Of a stretch of 54,880 bases of DNA, positions 1,595 through 10,139 are shown piece by piece (positions within the stretch are counted from its first letter, which is position 1; the number at the start of each line of letters is the position of its first letter). Both the position numbers and the translations under genes were made by a program. Source of the stretch: an uncultured Bacteroidales bacterium (GTDB lineage: Bacteria > Bacteroidota > Bacteroidia > Bacteroidales > Paludibacteraceae); NCBI GenBank assembly GCA_902762355.1, contig CACWNR010000012.1:1-54880 (forward strand), written 5' to 3'. Below the pieces are notes generated by a model. The model did not search any database, had not been told where the DNA came from, and was given only the letters and a program-made list of their open reading frames with translations.

Positions 1595-1613
1595 ATTGCA
1601 AACAGATTATATT

Positions 1614-3026
1614 ATGTATAAACGGAAGATCGAAGACTATCTTTTGCAATGGAAAGAGAATCCAAAGCACAAACCCATCGTTATTAAGGGTGTCCGTCAG
1701 TGCGGCAAGACCAGCAGCGTGAAGGCTTTTGCCAAAACGCATTATGATCATGTCGTATATTTGGATTTCCGCGAGCATAGGGAATATAAACATTTCTTTC
1801 AGCCCAGTTTGGATGTTGACGAGATCATTATGCGCATCTCGGCAACTTTGCCGTCGTTGGTTATTGAGCCGCATAAGACCTGCTTTGTTTTTGATGAGAT
1901 ACAAGATTGCCCCATGGCTCGTGCGTCTCTTAAATATTTCTATCTTGACGGACGCTATGACGTGCTTTGTACCGGATCTTTGTTGGGCGTGAATGGTTAC
2001 AAGACTCAAGAGGAACAAAAGGAGGAAGATGAGGCTTCTATTCCTGTCGGCTTCGAACATATTGTCGATATGTACCCGATGGATTTTGAGGAATGGCTAT
2101 GGGCGAACGGCATCAGGGAAGAGCATATTGCCCTTTTGCGCAAGCATTTCCAAGAAGAGACTCCTGTTGACGAAGCCATTCATTTTAGAATGCGCGAACT
2201 GCTGTTGCAATATGTGTTTGTGGGCGGAATGCCGGAAGCGGTGAGTACTTTCTTGACAACCAGACAAGTAGGTCCGCTGTTGGAGGTGCAACGTCAGATT
2301 ATTGATAGCTACAAAGCCGATATGATCAAATATGCGCGTACCGAAGATAAGTCGCGTATTCGTGAATGCTTTGAGTCCATTCCCCGGCAGCTGGCGAAGG
2401 AGAATAAGAAATTTACCTATACTGCAGTACGTCCCAACGGCCGAGGCAAAGATTATGCCGGTAGCCTGCAATGGATAGAAGACGCAGGTATCATCCGTCG
2501 TTGTTACAATACGGAAATAACCGAACTTCCCTTGGAAGGCAATGCCATACAAGACCAGTTTAAGGTGTACATGGCGGATACGGGTTTGTTTGTCAGTATG
2601 TTGGAAGACGGTACGGCCTCAAGTATTATTCAAGGGCAGTTAGGTGCATATAAAGGCGCTATCTATGAGAATCTGATGGCAGATATATTGGGTAAGATGG
2701 GGCGTAAACTCTATTATTACCATAAAGATAGCGGACTGGAGATTGATTTCTTGATACGCCATCAAGGCGAGTGCGTTTTGTTGGAGTGCAAGGCCAGAGG
2801 CGGCAATGCCAAGTCCCTGCAGACCATACTCAAACATCCCGAGAAATATCATGTGTACCATGCCATCAAATGTGGTGATTACAACGTGGGGCGCAACGAA
2901 GCCTTATTGACCATACCACTATATATGGCATTCCTTTTGGACCTCGCTCCGGAAGATATGGTATTGGAGCCGATAGACACAGATCAACTCACCCAATTTG
3001 CCAAGGGGGCCCTCACCGACCGATGA
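1614..3026 (+). CDS. AAA ATPase with DUF4143 C-terminal domain
   Basis: This 470-residue protein belongs to the AAA_14/DUF4143 group of Bacteroidota ATPases. Walker A is GVRQCGKT at residues 26-33 and Walker B is FVFDEIQD near residue 90. The C-terminal third carries a nuclease-like pattern, EIDFLI followed by LLECKARG, of the kind seen in degenerate PD-(D/E)XK folds. I chose the ATG at 1614 rather than 1596 because family members begin with a basic, aromatic residue run just before the P-loop (here MYKRKIEDYL). Cellular function is not established for this family; roles in mobile-element or toxin-antitoxin-like contexts have been suggested. It stands directly before the AT-rich defence cassette but has its own promoter. 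A remnant of another member lies beyond the cassette. Confidence 0.85.
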   Translation: MYKRKIEDYLLQWKENPKHKPIVIKGVRQCGKTSSVKAFAKTHYDHVVYLDFREHREYKHFFQPSLDVDEIIMRISATLPSLVIEPHKTCFVFDEIQDCPMARASLKYFYLDGRYDVLCTGSLLGVNGYKTQEEQKEEDEASIPVGFEHIVDMYPMDFEEWLWANGIREEHIALLRKHFQEETPVDEAIHFRMRELLLQYVFVGGMPEAVSTFLTTRQVGPLLEVQRQIIDSYKADMIKYARTEDKSRIRECFESIPRQLAKENKKFTYTAVRPNGRGKDYAGSLQWIEDAGIIRRCYNTEITELPLEGNAIQDQFKVYMADTGLFVSMLEDGTASSIIQGQLGAYKGAIYENLMADILGKMGRKLYYYHKDSGLEIDFLIRHQGECVLLECKARGGNAKSLQTILKHPEKYHVYHAIKCGDYNVGRNEALLTIPLYMAFLLDLAPEDMVLEPIDTDQLTQFAKGALTDR

Positions 3027-3285: not shown

Positions 3286-4374
3286 ATGAGCAAAGTGGTA
3301 TATTTATTAGGGGCGGGAGCAAGTTATGGAAGCAGAGGCGTTTTGCAGAATTTTATTGTGCCATTTATGAGTACAGACAAAGCAGAAGCCCCTAAAGGAA
3401 TCATTCGGGGATTTCCTGTGCTTAATGAATTTCCAAAAGCTGTTTCTCAAATGCAAAGAGAAATAGGAAGCATGAAAGACTTTGGAGAAGATAACAAAAA
3501 AATAATAAAAGAAATCTTACAAAGTATCTTAAATGTCAGTAAAGAGTTTCCGACCATAGATACATATGCAAAAATGCTCTACACCACGAAACAATTTGAA
3601 AAATATGAACAATTCAAAGAACAAATAGCGTTGTTTTTCTTAATCTGGCAAAGGTCACACAAACACGATATTCGTTATGATGCCTTTATTGCATCTCTGA
3701 TTGATGCAGAGACAGCAGAATTTCCACCAATGACCATTTTGTCGTGGAATTATGATATGCAGTTTGAAATGTCATATTCCAAATATATTACAGAAGGAAA
3801 GGCTTTGTGGAAAATATGGGATAAATTGAATGTGTGCTGCAAATCCAATGGAAGTTTGCCGAAATACGATGTGCAACAACCATTCGCTTTCATCAAACTA
3901 AATGGTTCTGCAATGTTTCATACTTCAGAACAAGATAATAGCTCATTACGCTATACTTTGCAAGATGTCCTATGGAGCTCCACAGAAGGAGAGCAATTTA
4001 TTTGTGATATTTGTACTATTTATGAAAATGCTCAGCATAAAAATATCTATTCCATACCTAAATATGTAAATGAGTTGTCTTATGCCTGGGATGATTTCGG
4101 AAGAGATTATATAAAACAGAATATAGAACAACGAGTAGAAGATTGTGAAACTCTTGTGATAATTGGCTACTCTTTCCCGTATGTAAATAGAGAGATTGAT
4201 AGACATGTTTTCTCAAGTATGCCTAATCTTAAAACAATATATGTACAGGATAAAGATGCCACTAATGTATCAGAACGCGTCACTGCAATATATGAGTACT
4301 TAAAAATGAGAGTACCAAGAATCATTCCCAAAACGGATGTGGGACAGTTTTTCATTCCGAATGAATTAGGTTAA
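3286..4374 (+). CDS. SIR2-like domain protein (putative defence NADase)
   Basis: This 362-residue protein shows the hallmarks of the SIR2-like superfamily: an N-terminal GAGAS loop at residues 9-13 after a hydrophobic strand (VVYLLGAGAS), a SWNYD motif with Asn155 and Asp157, KLNGS at about 205-208, and IGYSFP near residue 294 in the closing nucleotide-fold half. Proteins of this group in bacterial defence islands bind NAD+, and many degrade it to stop phage-infected cells. The sequence supports the fold but not the activity. It has no transmembrane segment. It is the first gene of a same-strand set with gaps of 43, 15 and 2 bp, suggesting one operon. Base composition is clearly more AT-rich than in the genes after 10261, consistent with acquisition by transfer. 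Confidence 0.85.
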   Translation: MSKVVYLLGAGASYGSRGVLQNFIVPFMSTDKAEAPKGIIRGFPVLNEFPKAVSQMQREIGSMKDFGEDNKKIIKEILQSILNVSKEFPTIDTYAKMLYTTKQFEKYEQFKEQIALFFLIWQRSHKHDIRYDAFIASLIDAETAEFPPMTILSWNYDMQFEMSYSKYITEGKALWKIWDKLNVCCKSNGSLPKYDVQQPFAFIKLNGSAMFHTSEQDNSSLRYTLQDVLWSSTEGEQFICDICTIYENAQHKNIYSIPKYVNELSYAWDDFGRDYIKQNIEQRVEDCETLVIIGYSFPYVNREIDRHVFSSMPNLKTIYVQDKDATNVSERVTAIYEYLKMRVPRIIPKTDVGQFFIPNELG

Positions 4375-4417
4375 GCGGCTAAGACAATATTAATTTGACT
4401 ATATAGGAAATTGAACG

Positions 4418-5866
4418 ATGGCTAAGCAACAAGAAGATAATACGCTCACTCTCAATTTTGAAGAAGCTGGAATTGAGAACAAAAAGAGTATTCGTCTCTT
4501 CCGAGATTATGAGGAGAGACACTTCTTGATTGGCTATATTCCTCCAAAAACAAAAGACTGGATTCGGGAAAACAAACTTTACAACATCCGCGCTGGAGCA
4601 GAAAACTGCAAAGGTGGAGTAGATGAGAAAGATCCTAATTCATATGCCGTTGACTACATCGTTCTTTACGAGAATCGCTACAACAACCGCTGTCAAATCT
4701 TTAAAGCCGATGCGTGCCAATATAAGTCTCGCGAAGAGATGGCTGAACTCAAATACCCAGATCCGCATAGCGACTATATGGTCTTCACGTTAGGAGAGGA
4801 GGTAAAATTTGAAAAATTTAGTCTACGCTGGCTGCTTAATCAAGAAAACGAGCACAAGAAAGGAACGCCATTATTCCTAACCGGAAAGGAGTTATTTTAC
4901 CGTGCTCATAAAGGTATGAAGGGACGTTATGGCGAACAGTTGCTGCTCGGATTGGATGTGAATATGAATGCCAAACCATTTGTGAAATGGGCAGGAGGGA
5001 AGGGCAAACTGTTAGATACCATTGATAATAAAATACCAAGAGAATTTTTAGAGAGACCTGTAACGTATATTGATCCGTTTGTTGGAGGTGGCGCTGTGAT
5101 GTTTCATATACTGAAGAATCACCCGAATTTTAATCGAGTAATTATTAATGATATCAACCCTGCCTTAATTAACTGCTATCGCATCATACAACAGAGTCCG
5201 GATCAATTGATTGAAGGTTTACGTGAACTGGAACTACTATATTACGCTTGCCAGAACCGAGAAGAACGAACAGAACTATATATGGCGATGCGCGATGAAT
5301 ATAACGCACCTGAATTAAATAGGAATTCACTTCGTGCTGCTGTGCTCTTTATGTTTTTGAATAAAACTTGCTTTAATGGTCTCTACCGAGAGAACAAAGT
5401 TGGAGCATTCAACGTTCCGCTTGGCAGCTATGTGCACCCTACTATCTGTAATGCCGATAGTATTCGATATGCACATCAAACGCTGCAAGGAGTGACGATC
5501 TTATGTGGTGACTACAAAGGTATTCTTGAACACGTAGATTGGAACGAAAACAATTTCTTCTACTTTGATCCTCCATATCGTCCTTTATTAGGCGCAACTA
5601 ATTTTAAGAACTACAGTAGGATGGAATTTGGAGATTCACAACAAGAAGAATTAGCTGAGTTCTGTGGCTTAATCCACCAGCATGGAGGAAAATTCCTTCT
5701 TAGCAATTCGGATAGCGAGATTGAAGAAGGAGTTAATTACTTTGAAAGGCTTTATGAGCACGAGGGATATATTTTTGAGAGAGTATATGCTCCAAGATAT
5801 ATAAACGCATATGTATCTAAACGCGAGAATGCATCCGAAGTACTTATCCATAATTACGAAATATAA
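4418..5866 (+). CDS. Dam/DpnM-type DNA adenine-N6 methyltransferase with extra N-terminal domain
   Basis: Residues ~185-482 form a D12-class (alpha) adenine methyltransferase. Motif X is PFVKWAGGKGK near residue 187, the SAM-binding motif I is DPFVGGGA near 219, and the catalytic DPPY is at about 384-387 (FFYFDPPYRPL). FNGLYRENKVGAFNVPLG and LLSNSDSE match the DpnM/Dam pattern, so GATC is the most likely target, by inference only. The first ~180 residues are not part of the methyltransferase and do not match a domain I recognise. They are charged and aromatic-rich and could be a DNA-recognition or modified-base-reading module. The protein is 482 aa, against about 270-290 for a stand-alone Dam. 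Its position between a SIR2-like gene and a nuclease/helicase pair suggests it marks self DNA for the neighbouring effector genes. Confidence 0.9.
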   Translation: MAKQQEDNTLTLNFEEAGIENKKSIRLFRDYEERHFLIGYIPPKTKDWIRENKLYNIRAGAENCKGGVDEKDPNSYAVDYIVLYENRYNNRCQIFKADACQYKSREEMAELKYPDPHSDYMVFTLGEEVKFEKFSLRWLLNQENEHKKGTPLFLTGKELFYRAHKGMKGRYGEQLLLGLDVNMNAKPFVKWAGGKGKLLDTIDNKIPREFLERPVTYIDPFVGGGAVMFHILKNHPNFNRVIINDINPALINCYRIIQQSPDQLIEGLRELELLYYACQNREERTELYMAMRDEYNAPELNRNSLRAAVLFMFLNKTCFNGLYRENKVGAFNVPLGSYVHPTICNADSIRYAHQTLQGVTILCGDYKGILEHVDWNENNFFYFDPPYRPLLGATNFKNYSRMEFGDSQQEELAEFCGLIHQHGGKFLLSNSDSEIEEGVNYFERLYEHEGYIFERVYAPRYINAYVSKRENASEVLIHNYEI

Positions 5867-5881
5867 AAAAAACACGCAAAT

Positions 5882-8179
5882 ATGATTTTATCAGAACTAC
5901 AAATTGATGAGATTCGCAGTCACATGCTTCATCAGGAAGAGATTTTAAAAACCAAATTCAAAGCTCGTAATGATAACTTTGTGAGAATTAAAGTTCTGCA
6001 CAACGAAGTTGAAGACTGGGAAGCCAAAGGTTACTTTCCGCAGGCACGGACTGCACGTAAAACAACTATGGTTAAACCTAAGGAACATAGTATCCAATTG
6101 GAAGATGATGTTTGGTGTATGTTCTACAAATTGGGATTTAACAAACTTAATCTTGACGAGAATCTTCGTGTCCAGTGGGGACCGAACAAAGAAGATACTC
6201 AGCAATTGGATGTTGTTGCTGTTGGTGACGAAGCCATCTTTGTCGTGGAATGCAAATCAGCTGCTTCTCCTCAATCTCGCTCGTTTAAAAATGAGTTGAA
6301 CGCTATGGAACAATACATGGAAGGAGTTAGTGATGCGTTACGCCAAATCTATGGGAAAGAAAAACGTGTAAAGTTCATATTTGCGACACGTAATTTCCGT
6401 TTCCAAGAAGAAGGTGATGATATTTTGCGCATGAGAAATGCCGGTATCTTCCATTTGAATGAAAATGCATTCTCCTACGTCAACAACCTGATAAAATCAT
6501 ATAAAGAGGCTGTTATCTATCAGTTCCATGCTTTGATGTTCAAAGATGAACTGATTAGCACGAATTCTATTATTATTCCTGCGATGAGAGGTTCTATGGG
6601 AGGCAAGAAATACTATCTTTTCTCGGTAGAGCCAAGTACGTTATTGAAGATTGGATTTGTGCTACACAGAACTCGTGTTAATGATTCTATGGCTCCTACG
6701 TATCAGCGTCTATTAGTACCATCGCGTCTCAAAGGTATTACTAAATTTATTGATAATGGAGGATATTTTCCAAACTCAATCATTATCAATTTCTGCGAAC
6801 CTAACGAGGACTTGAAGATTGATTTTGCTCCAATTAAAGAAAAAACAGATTCAAATGTAGAGTTTGGCTATTTGGAGATACCTAATGCATATGGTATTGC
6901 CCATATAATTGACGGACAGCATCGTATCTATGGCTATGCCAACTCTCAATTTAAGGACAAAAACACTATTCCGGTTGTCGCTTTTGAGAACATGGAGTCA
7001 GAAGAACAATTAAAGATCTTCATGGAAATAAACGAGAATCAAAAATCAGTTAGTCCGAGTCTTCGATTAGACTTAGAAGAAGATTTGTATTGGAATTCCG
7101 GTCGTTTGGATTCACGCATGAAAGCTCTTCGCTCATCCATTATCAAAGCGCTTTCTGCAAGTTCCAACCACATCCTATACAATAAAATTTCCGTGGGAGA
7201 AGATTCGTCTTCGTTGACTTTTAAACCTTTCGATACTGCTTTGGCACACTCTGGACTCATTCCTAAGGCAAACCAGTCACAGTGGATAGGAGATCTGGAT
7301 ATTTGTATCTATAACACAAATGAAACAGACTCCGATAAAGCGATGAAGGACTCTCGCAAGCGTATAACACAATTTATAGATGGTGTTTATGCTATGCTAG
7401 CGGAGAATTTGACTGATGAGAACAAACAAGACTTCTTATTCTCCAACCGAGCCACATTCGCTATTATCACCCTGATTGGTTCTTTACATGAGTTCTTAAT
7501 TAAGTGTAATGTGATTCAACCTACCTCTTCGGTTCATGAGCGTTTAAACGCAATTCGTCCTTATATAGAGGCTTTAGCTTATGGACTGAATAATATTTCG
7601 GATGAAGGGAAAGCTGCAGTAAAGGGTTCTCTTGGATCTGGTGCAGATTCGTTCTGGTTGCATACTTATCAAGACTTGGTGAATAGAAAATATCCCGACT
7701 ATTGTCCAGAAGAATTAGTTACATTTAAAGAAACGCAAGACCAAGGTTTGCAAAAGAAAGGTCAAGACAGCAAGGCGGAAATCAAAGAGTTATTGCGTAC
7801 AGTGTTCTTTGCTAAAATGAATCAAGTACATGGCATGTCTGCCTCTAAGAAATTATCTGATCTAAAACTAGCATGTCAAGTTCGCATTATGAATGCTCAT
7901 ACCGATGATGAGGATTTTGATGTAGAATCTGAGGATTGGACAGATTGGATTGAAGTATCTGAATATAAAAAGAAAATTGAGGATAATTTCTCATCTCCGG
8001 AGTTTGAAGAAGCTTTTGCCATTGATTTAGGAGGCGCTTTCAAATCACGAAAAGACAAATTAGCATGGATGGCAAAGATAGAGGAACCTAAGGGGAAAAA
8101 GAAATCTGCCATAACTAACGCTGAACTAAGCCAACTTTGGATAATTCGTGATCACCTGGCTCAATTTAATGTCGAATAA
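5882..8179 (+). CDS. PD-(D/E)XK nuclease-like / DGQHR domain fusion protein
   Basis: This 765-residue protein appears to have two recognisable parts. Residues ~75-200 carry a restriction-nuclease-like pattern: a Glu in an early helix, LDVVAV with Asp110, then VVECKS with Glu123 and Lys125. That order fits a PD-(D/E)XK core. Residues ~280-440 contain DGQHR (344-348) inside IIDGQHRIYGYA, the signature of the DGQHR family that includes DndB of DNA phosphorothioation and DpdB of 7-deazaguanine DNA modification, related to the ParB/Srx fold. MEINENQKSVSPSLRLDL downstream is typical of this family. The C-terminal ~300 residues are mostly helical and unassigned. The gene begins 15 bp after the methyltransferase and ends 2 bp before the helicase, so co-expression is likely. 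An N-terminal nuclease fused to DGQHR suggests recognition plus cleavage or nicking, but this is inference. Confidence 0.8.
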   Translation: MILSELQIDEIRSHMLHQEEILKTKFKARNDNFVRIKVLHNEVEDWEAKGYFPQARTARKTTMVKPKEHSIQLEDDVWCMFYKLGFNKLNLDENLRVQWGPNKEDTQQLDVVAVGDEAIFVVECKSAASPQSRSFKNELNAMEQYMEGVSDALRQIYGKEKRVKFIFATRNFRFQEEGDDILRMRNAGIFHLNENAFSYVNNLIKSYKEAVIYQFHALMFKDELISTNSIIIPAMRGSMGGKKYYLFSVEPSTLLKIGFVLHRTRVNDSMAPTYQRLLVPSRLKGITKFIDNGGYFPNSIIINFCEPNEDLKIDFAPIKEKTDSNVEFGYLEIPNAYGIAHIIDGQHRIYGYANSQFKDKNTIPVVAFENMESEEQLKIFMEINENQKSVSPSLRLDLEEDLYWNSGRLDSRMKALRSSIIKALSASSNHILYNKISVGEDSSSLTFKPFDTALAHSGLIPKANQSQWIGDLDICIYNTNETDSDKAMKDSRKRITQFIDGVYAMLAENLTDENKQDFLFSNRATFAIITLIGSLHEFLIKCNVIQPTSSVHERLNAIRPYIEALAYGLNNISDEGKAAVKGSLGSGADSFWLHTYQDLVNRKYPDYCPEELVTFKETQDQGLQKKGQDSKAEIKELLRTVFFAKMNQVHGMSASKKLSDLKLACQVRIMNAHTDDEDFDVESEDWTDWIEVSEYKKKIEDNFSSPEFEEAFAIDLGGAFKSRKDKLAWMAKIEEPKGKKKSAITNAELSQLWIIRDHLAQFNVE

Positions 8180-8181
8180 CT

Positions 8182-9585
8182 ATGTATAAAGAAATATCAC
8201 GATTAGATCGTACATTGCGTTCATACCAACAAGATGCTAAGGAGAAGATCTTTTCTGCTTGGGATGAATGCAACAATGTAATGTTCCAGATGCCAACAGG
8301 TACTGGTAAAACACGTCTTTTTACATCTATCATATCGGATATTAAAGCATGGAGTATTTTGCGCTCAACGGATGCAAAGATCCTAATTATTGCACATCGC
8401 ATAGAATTGATTGAGCAGATTAGCGAGAATCTTGGCAAGTATGGAATCATACATGGAATCATAGCTGGTGGAAAAGATAGAGATCTATCTCTTCCTGTGC
8501 AAGTCGCATCCATTCAGACGATAACTCATCACACAAATGAAAGTGCTGCACGAGAGTTAAAAGCCAATTTTATAATTATTGACGAGGCACACCATTCAAT
8601 AGCCAACTCATATAGGAAGTTATGGAAGATGTTTCCTGACGCAAAAGTATTAGGCGTAACGGCTACTCCATGGCGTATGAACAATCGTGGGTTTAGCGAA
8701 ATGTACGACAGGTTAATCCTCTCTAAACCTATTAAAGAGTTTATTGAAGAAGGATGGTTGGCTCCATACGATTATTATTCAATAAAGGAGTCCAGTTATT
8801 TAAATACCGAAATTAGTAATATTGATCAGTTCGATATTGAGGGCGACTATAAAACTGCTGCTTTGGAAACGGTAGTTGATACGAGTAGAATCCGTGCACA
8901 GTTATTGGATAGTTACCTCAAATATGCGAAAGGCAAAAAAGGCATTATCTATTCCATTAGCAGAAAGCATAGTGACCATATTTGTAATGAGTTTAAACAG
9001 GCAGGAGTTAACATCGTTCGTATAGATAGTCTCACTCCACGTGATGAAAGACGCTTATATGTTAAGCGGTTTAGATCTGGCTTGATAGACATTATCGTTA
9101 ATGTAGATATATTCTCAGAGGGATTCGATTGTCCGGATATAGAATTCATCCAGTTAGCGCGACCTACAAAATCCCTTGTCAAATACATTCAACAAGTAGG
9201 ACGTGGATTACGACCGACTGCAAATAAAACGCGTTGTCTTATATTGGACAATGTAGGCTTACATCTAGCATTTGGACTTCCTGACGCGGATCAAGATTGG
9301 GAAAAGTATTTTGAAGGAGAAGTGCCTTCTCCATCGGGTAATAATGGTTCTGGTTGTGCAAATACGCAAATCACAAATACTCCCGAACCTTCATTTGAGG
9401 AAGGCAATGATGAGATGTGTCTAATCGTTAGTAAAGAAGAGGTATCTTGGTCAGAACACGACAACGAACTACTCAAAACACTTTACTTCGATAAACATTG
9501 TTCTGTGGCTGTGCTTTCAGAGGTTTTCAAAATGAAAGAGGAGCAAATCTTAGAGAAAATATCCACTATAAGTCAATCAATATGA
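8182..9585 (+). CDS. SF2 DEAH-box helicase (restriction-type), C-terminal HTH-like tail
   Basis: This 467-residue protein has all the main superfamily 2 motifs: a YQQDAKEKI region, Walker A PTGTGKT (about 38-44), DEAHHS (motif II, about 134), GVTATPWR (motif III), motif V NVDIFSEGFDCP and motif VI QQVGRGLRP (about 337). It resembles the SSL2/type III restriction ResIII-like translocases found in defence operons. The last ~50 residues (VSWSEHDNELLKTLYFDKHC and onward) look like a Myb/SANT-like helix-turn-helix, a possible DNA-binding tail. No nuclease domain is present in this protein, so cleavage would have to come from the DGQHR fusion encoded immediately upstream. Only 2 bp separate its ATG from the preceding stop codon. 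Confidence 0.9.
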   Translation: MYKEISRLDRTLRSYQQDAKEKIFSAWDECNNVMFQMPTGTGKTRLFTSIISDIKAWSILRSTDAKILIIAHRIELIEQISENLGKYGIIHGIIAGGKDRDLSLPVQVASIQTITHHTNESAARELKANFIIIDEAHHSIANSYRKLWKMFPDAKVLGVTATPWRMNNRGFSEMYDRLILSKPIKEFIEEGWLAPYDYYSIKESSYLNTEISNIDQFDIEGDYKTAALETVVDTSRIRAQLLDSYLKYAKGKKGIIYSISRKHSDHICNEFKQAGVNIVRIDSLTPRDERRLYVKRFRSGLIDIIVNVDIFSEGFDCPDIEFIQLARPTKSLVKYIQQVGRGLRPTANKTRCLILDNVGLHLAFGLPDADQDWEKYFEGEVPSPSGNNGSGCANTQITNTPEPSFEEGNDEMCLIVSKEEVSWSEHDNELLKTLYFDKHCSVAVLSEVFKMKEEQILEKISTISQSI

Positions 9586-9592
9586 TAAGTAT

Positions 9593-9739
9593 ATGCCCTG
9601 TCCACATAACAACATAGAATGCCCTTGTGTGAAAGAGAGCTGTCCGCGACACGGACATTGCTGTGAGTGCGTTTCACATCATAAAGAGCACGGCAAAAAA
9701 CTCCCTGCCTGCTTGCGCGGCATCATCTGGCAAACTTAG
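9593..9739 (+). CDS. small Cys/His-rich protein, 48 aa
   Basis: An ATG at 9593 opens a 48-codon frame encoding a protein with eight Cys and six His, with the core CPCVKESCPRHGHCCECVSH and a LPACLRG end. The spacing CxC-x4-C-x5-CCxC is that of a short zinc or metal-binding protein. It resembles the small Bacteroidota/Firmicutes proteins grouped as DUF6485, as I recall that family, which I cannot check here. It starts 7 bp after the helicase stop, so it may be co-transcribed with the cassette. It could also be a resident gene that the cassette inserted next to. Confidence 0.7.
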   Translation: MPCPHNNIECPCVKESCPRHGHCCECVSHHKEHGKKLPACLRGIIWQT

Positions 9740-9950: not shown

Positions 9951-10139
9951 TTACAATAATGGTGTCATATACAAAGGCAGGTACGTGATACCCTCTTTGA
10001 TCTCCAAATCTTTGGTGTGGAGGACGATGGGGTTAGTAACGTATTGACTGAACTTGTCCATGCATTTATTGAGCGAGGATAAGGAGTAACACGGTGTTGA
10101 TTTAACTTCAATCGGGCAGATGTTTAACGCTTCCTTGCC
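9951..10139 (-). pseudogene. C-terminal remnant of a DUF4143-type ATPase
   Basis: The minus strand from about 10139 to the TAA at 9951-9953 encodes a fragment reading PIEVKSTPCYSLSSLNKCMD and ending YLPLYMTPLL. This is the typical end of DUF4143 ATPases: an IEVKS nuclease-like strand, a helix, a short strand and a YLPLYM tail. An in-frame stop lies just upstream and there is no start codon or P-loop, so only the last ~60 residues remain. It is a different subfamily from the intact ATPase at 1614. It indicates that deletion or insertion has occurred at this border of the cassette. Confidence 0.75.

Follow-up and report, generated by a model that had tools for sequence, protein, structure and literature searches.

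Among the closest described relatives of the locus reported here are systems in which a ParB-like domain with a DGQ(Q/H)R motif is coupled to a nuclease and a DNA mark, as in DndI and SspE: DndI is a ParB-like DGQQR nucleoside triphosphatase plus HNH nuclease, and the self mark boosts its ATP hydrolysis and releases it from self DNA (PMC11662687). A DndB-like ParB-fold protein binds both ATP and GTP, and DndB itself has been described as repressing transcription (PMC12704722); the DGQHR domain is also related to the GmrS domain, part of a modification-dependent enzyme (PMC4619093). Here we analyse a cassette of four genes near the start of contig CACWNR010000012.1 (GenBank assembly GCA_902762355.1) of an uncultured Bacteroidales bacterium of the Paludibacteraceae; the whole analysed stretch, 54,880 nucleotides long, is called the window. 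Three of these genes, encoding a Dam/DpnM-like methylase, a nuclease-DGQHR protein and an SF2 helicase (4418-9585, hereafter the core), probably constitute a restriction-modification (R-M) system, to which the SIR2-like gene ahead of them would not belong. The open reading frames (ORFs) and domains, with protein lengths in amino acids (aa), are as follows:

3286..4374, + strand: SIR2-like protein, 362 aa; a neighbour or guest, outside the conserved core
4418-5866, + strand: methylase ORF, 482 aa, N-terminal extension followed by D12 domain
4418..4963, + strand: N-terminal extension of the methylase, about residues 1-182, a domain common to other R-M proteins
4964..5866, + strand: Dam/DpnM-like D12 adenine methyltransferase domain, GATC predicted (TIGR00571, likeness to DpnM)
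5882..8179, + strand: nuclease-DGQHR ORF, 765 aa; PD-(D/E)XK nuclease (~1-225), ParB-fold DGQHR domain (~232-400) and helical C-terminus (folds, TIGR03187)
8182..9585, + strand: SF2 helicase ORF, 467 aa; helicase/translocase, RadD/ResIII-like (ResIII, Helicase_C; motifs intact)

Comparison with described systems

A sequence-only reading of this DNA had proposed the four genes as a single candidate defence system matching none that has a name. Its description of the layout holds: the ORF listing gives four same-strand genes with gaps of 43, 15 and 2 bp, and their guanine-plus-cytosine (GC) content is low (34.6% in the SIR2 gene and 38.2-39.7% in the other three, vs 50.1% in positions 10000-54880). 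Pfam and NCBIfam bear out its Dam, DGQHR and SF2 assignments and the fold of an AlphaFold model its SIR2 assignment, and the profile matches of the four proteins (PADLOC 2.0, Pfam, NCBIfam) indeed add up to no named system.

Like R-M systems of the DpnII/MboI type, the set has a Dam/DpnM-like D12 methylase, and its kin hold a DpnII restriction endonuclease (three loci) and a DpnA-like methyltransferase (eight loci); unlike those systems, the window set has neither (the DpnII endonuclease profile PF04556 finds no match at E<=0.01 in the four window proteins), and carries in their place the ParB-fold PD-(D/E)XK nuclease and the SF2 helicase. The likeness to DndI and SspE lies in the ParB-like domain with its DGQ(Q/H)R motif; the nuclease, however, is PD-(D/E)XK where theirs is HNH (no HNH domain matched in the cassette proteins), and the partner is Dam instead of dnd or ssp genes, with no phosphorothioate modification genes in the four cassette genes covered by the scans. 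The DGQHR domain itself (TIGR03187, 114.2 bits vs a cut-off of 58.85) is shared with DndB and DpdB, from which the window protein differs in carrying a nuclease domain; membership of Dpd or Dnd was rejected on the profile scores (DpdB 53.9 bits vs 300, DndB 30.3 vs 328). The SIR2-like protein has the SIR2 fold and the WNYD motif in common with SIR2-HerA, Thoeris ThsA and the SPARSA SIR2, but the cassette lacks HerA and ThsB, and 33/33 aligned members of the family (window included) have Asn where the catalytic His would be expected. A Dam-linked PD-(D/E)XK-DGQHR system was not met in those parts of the literature that the search could reach, which left aside preprints, REBASE and most subscription papers and so gives weak evidence of novelty; the same literature yielded nothing on DUF7226, on SIR2 with type ISP, or on DpnII and SIR2 combined with further terms.

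Recurrence of the methylase-nuclease core

In 26 of 29 distinct full-length loci (the window included) the nuclease-DGQHR gene has a D12 methylase gene as its direct neighbour or with one gene between. Such pairs occur in Bacteroidales, in a Paenibacillus and on virus-labelled contigs, with identity falling to 23%. Presence and absence were judged within the fetched stretches, some of them ended by the contig and several of them short (for example 0.5 kb past the gene in L054, and 0.8-0.9 kb in L088 and L090). Besides the window, the loci come from genome contigs (7), 393 order-level genomes (5), 358 family-level genomes (6), plasmids (2 distinct among 5 records) and virus-labelled contigs (6, and 2 further). 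Matches not spanning nuclease and DGQHR domain over a protein of ~750 aa or more were left out: 15 of 21 genomes in the order-level search, 8 of 15 in the family-level one, 3 of 4 and 7 of 8 in further searches, 20 of 25 plasmid records, and L093, L172 and L173. Of the matches left out, the shorter DGQHR proteins and L030-L034 described below, and the neighbourhoods of G016, G712 and G391, were also examined. Also set aside were duplicate plasmid records (L007, whose protein accession is that of L005, and two records with matching figures) and contigs already counted (L165, L167-L171). On phage records none of four matches reached 80% coverage, and a scan of viral contigs with the L006 protein found nothing.

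The partners of this pair vary from locus to locus. An SF2 helicase occurs in 10/29 (the window, L009-L014 and L078-L080), and these ten rows form one supported clade (98/95); a DUF7226-like small protein occurs in seven (L009-L014, L078) and a DpnA-like second methylase in eight (L010-L014, L051, L053, L083). In 3/29 the Dam and nuclease-DGQHR genes have a DpnII endonuclease gene between them, identified by Pfam in L051 and L053 and by BLAST in L083. These three (L051:5184-10844, L053:5188-10156, L083:5357-10273) are DpnII-type operons in which the nuclease-DGQHR gene is placed between the endonuclease and the DpnA-like methylase. L081 and L082 show, besides Dam, no other partner of the set within the fetched stretches, so Dam and nuclease-DGQHR may suffice. 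The recurrence expected of the four-gene set is thus found in part: methylase, nuclease and helicase occur together in ten loci, and all four genes in the window alone (1/29).

Catalytic triad and proposed mechanism

The nuclease fold and the ParB fold of the 765-aa protein each match solved structures, and its presumptive catalytic residues, D110, E123 and K125, are intact. Across the full-length proteins this triad is kept in 26/26 that are linked to Dam, however distant, and broken in 3/3 that are not: K is replaced by T in L005 and by R in L006, and L092 has both D-to-N and K-to-R changes. In the first alignment, of 27 proteins, the triad was intact in 24/24 with Dam, and the DGQHR, QR and FxxxN motifs in 27/27; two near-duplicate proteins found after the pattern had been noticed, L164 and L166, also come with Dam and keep all three residues. 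The tree requires two separate changes of partner, one for L005 with L006 and one for L092, whose sister pair carries Dam.

The D12 methyltransferase occupies residues 191-449 of its 482-aa protein (Pfam E 9e-56), scores 257.5 bits against TIGR00571 dam (cut-off 114.85) and resembles DpnM (2dpm, phmmer E 6.5e-36), and its relatives occur in DpnII operons. The helicase matches ResIII (E 1.2e-31) and Helicase_C (E 7e-17), reaches 151 bits with the RadD profile (under its cut-off of 720), and has the motifs GTGKT at 40, DEAH at 134 and QQVGRGLRP at 337.

The R-M interpretation draws on the association of the genes, the domain folds, the catalytic motifs found intact and the loss of the triad in the three Dam-less full-length relatives; what we infer is GATC specificity, sensing of the mark by the ParB-like domain, the role of the helicase and any activity of the SIR2-like protein. 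The Dam/DpnM-like enzyme would methylate adenine in the cell's own DNA, most likely at GATC, and the 765-aa protein would be the restriction endonuclease, in which the DGQHR domain, of ParB fold and binding both a nucleotide and DNA, would control the PD-(D/E)XK domain. On the model of DndI, the DGQHR domain would make the nuclease let go of self DNA that bears the mark while it stays active against phage or plasmid DNA that does not. The helicase, confined to one clade, would move along DNA or pass it on to the nuclease. The SIR2-like gene would be a separately evolving, probably abortive-type defence gene, possibly co-transcribed with the core.

The SIR2-like gene

The SIR2-like protein has no match at E<=0.01 in PADLOC, Pfam or NCBIfam, and is placed by its AlphaFold model, which matches SIR2 folds; a link by sequence profile between its family and solved SIR2s was not found. 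Within the family the WNYD motif is invariant, and so are N155 and N206 throughout the 33 sequences aligned, that of the window among them. N206 falls at the LHG-like position, located by motif and not by alignment to a solved SIR2, which we take to be that of the LHG histidine of SIR2 NADases. With Asn at the presumed catalytic His throughout, cleavage of nicotinamide adenine dinucleotide (NAD) is doubtful, and we suspect that the family has lost it.

PrrC is a guard for a type I system, and the four genes could likewise be one system of two layers, in which the core restricts and a block of restriction makes the SIR2-like protein kill or arrest the cell. The shared strand and the 43-bp gap agree with such an arrangement, and so do the surroundings of the SIR2 relatives: in at least 10 of 33 other loci (L055, L056, L060, L061, L063, L095, L140, L145, L147, L149) an R-M methylase or BrxL gene lies no more than three genes away, the distance being <=30 bp to an R-M gene in four of them and 34 bp to BrxL in one. 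That figure is a raw count, which ordinary defence-island clustering may also give. In the remaining 23 no R-M or BREX gene was seen that near, Pfam having been run on part of the neighbours and some stretches being short. Against a two-layer system, none of the 28 other full-length core loci has a SIR2 match, so that relatives of the core manage without one, at least in the fetched stretches. The nearest SIR2s, L137-L139 of the same genus (81, 77 and 59% identical in the alignment, 80, 77 and 57% by BLAST), have no Dam, nuclease-DGQHR or SF2 gene in the stretches fetched around them, of which that of L138 reaches only 1.6 kb upstream. A family-level search found no full-length nuclease-DGQHR protein in their genomes (G569 has one partial DGQHR match). 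The GC content of the SIR2 gene also differs from that of the core genes. We therefore consider a two-layer system unlikely. The claim that SIR2 is the defining fourth part is not supported, its NADase residues being in doubt as well; it looks like a separate, modular defence gene adjoining the core here.

SIR2 relatives, found in 21/358 family genomes, have other neighbours as well: in L147 (4119-6678) the relative lies 3' of the BrxL gene, L146 has a D12 methylase farther off, OloB and AbiH adjoin the relatives in L143 and L144, and some relatives lie in phage-like surroundings. No homologue was found on plasmids at E<=1e-5. The set leaves out L100, a near copy of L099, and partial matches for which no neighbourhood was fetched.

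DGQHR proteins with other partners

Several observations weigh against the R-M interpretation of the core. A shorter DGQHR subfamily (569-612 aa; L025, L028, L029, L035, L038, L072, L073) stands directly behind an N4/N6 methylase (PF01555) in 7/7 loci, and has E-x-T instead of E-x-K, with Thr at the aligned Lys in 7/7; a linked methylase alone is thus no predictor of an intact site. In G414, a DpnII operon (L194:4093-8696) holds, between the endonuclease and the DpnA-like methylase, the gene for a 474-aa DGQHR protein without a nuclease domain, so that the DGQHR part can serve without cutting. Two subfamilies can be told apart among the Dam partners, with 43-54% and 27-31% identity to the window Dam, which leaves a single target for all of them unproven. 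These three points lower our confidence in an R-M system. To them may be added that Dam and nuclease-DGQHR identities correlate moderately (Spearman 0.49, 24 loci), that the Dam-less full-length proteins number only three, that Foldseek on the model of the 765-aa protein gave no match at E<=0.001, and that the window lacks the DUF7226, DpnA and DpnII partners of its kin.

The nuclease-less protein and the Lys-less subfamily, together with the repressor role described for DndB (PMC12704722), would also suit a nuclease-DGQHR protein that is mainly a DndB-like regulator or reader, the cutting being left to other enzymes (DpnII in its kin, something else here). The conserved D/E/K triad of all the Dam-linked proteins and the lack of another nuclease gene of the set in L081 and L082 make this quite improbable. 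As judged from the aligned sequences, the full triad accompanies Dam, not methylases generally.

Further combinations were met in passing. Two-gene pairs, an N4/N6 methylase with a DGQHR protein of 569-612 aa that has Thr at the presumed nuclease Lys, occur in L188:2578-5629, L189:4353-7401, L190:4265-7333, L191:5225-7844, L192:9784-12867 (with a helicase-like gene next), L193:1378-4418 and L195:2355-5350. The DGQ motif is absent from the 616-617 aa ORFs of L030-L034. In the three Dam-less loci the broken-triad DGQHR gene is part of a sister cassette (L005:7875-14579, L006:7893-16343, L092:7971-11496), with a radical SAM gene adjoining or one gene off, annotated in L005 and L006; that of L092 is 41% identical to that of L006 but under the Pfam cut-off. 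The 25 other non-window loci have no match to this gene. The plasmid loci L005 and L006 additionally carry a small DGQHR protein and ATP-binding and PIN-like genes, and the sister cassette is possibly another DNA-modification system.

Methylase extension and surroundings of the locus

The ~182-residue N-terminal domain of the methylase, not mentioned in the sequence-only reading, has no match in Pfam. Its relatives are fused to a C5 methyltransferase (in the same genome), fused to DUF2357/PDDEXK_7 nucleases, or standalone; this unnamed domain of ~180 residues (L151, L152, L153, L154, L155) is thus common to N6-adenine and C5-cytosine methylases and DUF2357/PDDEXK_7 nucleases, and is perhaps a target-recognition or coupling module. 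The fusion is absent from the other Dam partners compared. No homologues were found on plasmids (E<=1e-5) or in viral contigs, and the extension was rejected as a counterpart of the kin's DUF7226 protein, to which it has no similarity.

Upstream of the cassette lies the tail of a ribosomal RNA operon (23S end at 1-95, 5S at 401-513), followed by an intact DUF4143 ATPase gene (1596-3026, by Pfam). Downstream, a remnant of 62 codons (9954-10139, - strand) shares 84% identity with the C-terminal end of an ATPase ORF that is intact in a genome of the same genus, though it has no Pfam match of its own; the flanking pair of one intact and one ruined ATPase gene noted earlier is thereby confirmed. 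Between helicase gene and remnant is a small Cys/His-rich ORF of 48 aa (9593-9739; no Pfam match). Scans for promoters and terminators gave signals no better than shuffled sequence, and GATC, counted in the window only, is not depleted (cassette 18 observed vs 21.5 expected, remainder 200 vs 175.2). Homology to the flanks in four genomes amounts to the downstream gene and short pieces, which does not demonstrate an insertion, and no copies of the cassette were found on plasmids at the DNA level.

The ruined ATPase gene, the unusual methylase fusion and the missing DUF7226, DpnA and DpnII partners could be signs of a decayed or reshuffled DpnII-type operon that is non-functional here. Against this, none of the four ORFs is truncated, the motifs of nuclease, DGQHR domain and helicase are intact, and we regard decay as a long shot. 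Least credible is a modification-dependent (type IV-like) nuclease that cuts methylated DNA beside an orphan or regulatory Dam: the related GmrS domain of a modification-dependent enzyme (PMC4619093) and the weak DpdB/DndB similarity point that way, but a nuclease directed against Dam-marked DNA is hardly compatible with an active Dam, and the triad is intact wherever Dam accompanies it.

Implications

A wider reading, which as a whole we put forward tentatively and hold to be somewhat doubtful, is that DGQHR proteins are general mark readers paired with Dam, N4/N6 methylases, radical SAM enzymes, Dnd or Dpd. The Dam branch would be the live-nuclease, methyl-sensing counterpart of DndI; with other partners the altered site would go with reading or regulating; and the His-to-Asn SIR2 family would be a portable fail-safe of modification systems (types I, II, III, ISP, BREX and this one). 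The modular SIR2 here also cautions against reading adjacent genes as one system. That a full catalytic triad is found only with Dam constitutes a genetic prediction. If it is true that the core is an R-M system of the kind proposed, ordinary methylation of adenine would join phosphorothioate and glucosylated DNA among the marks sensed by ParB-like nucleases.

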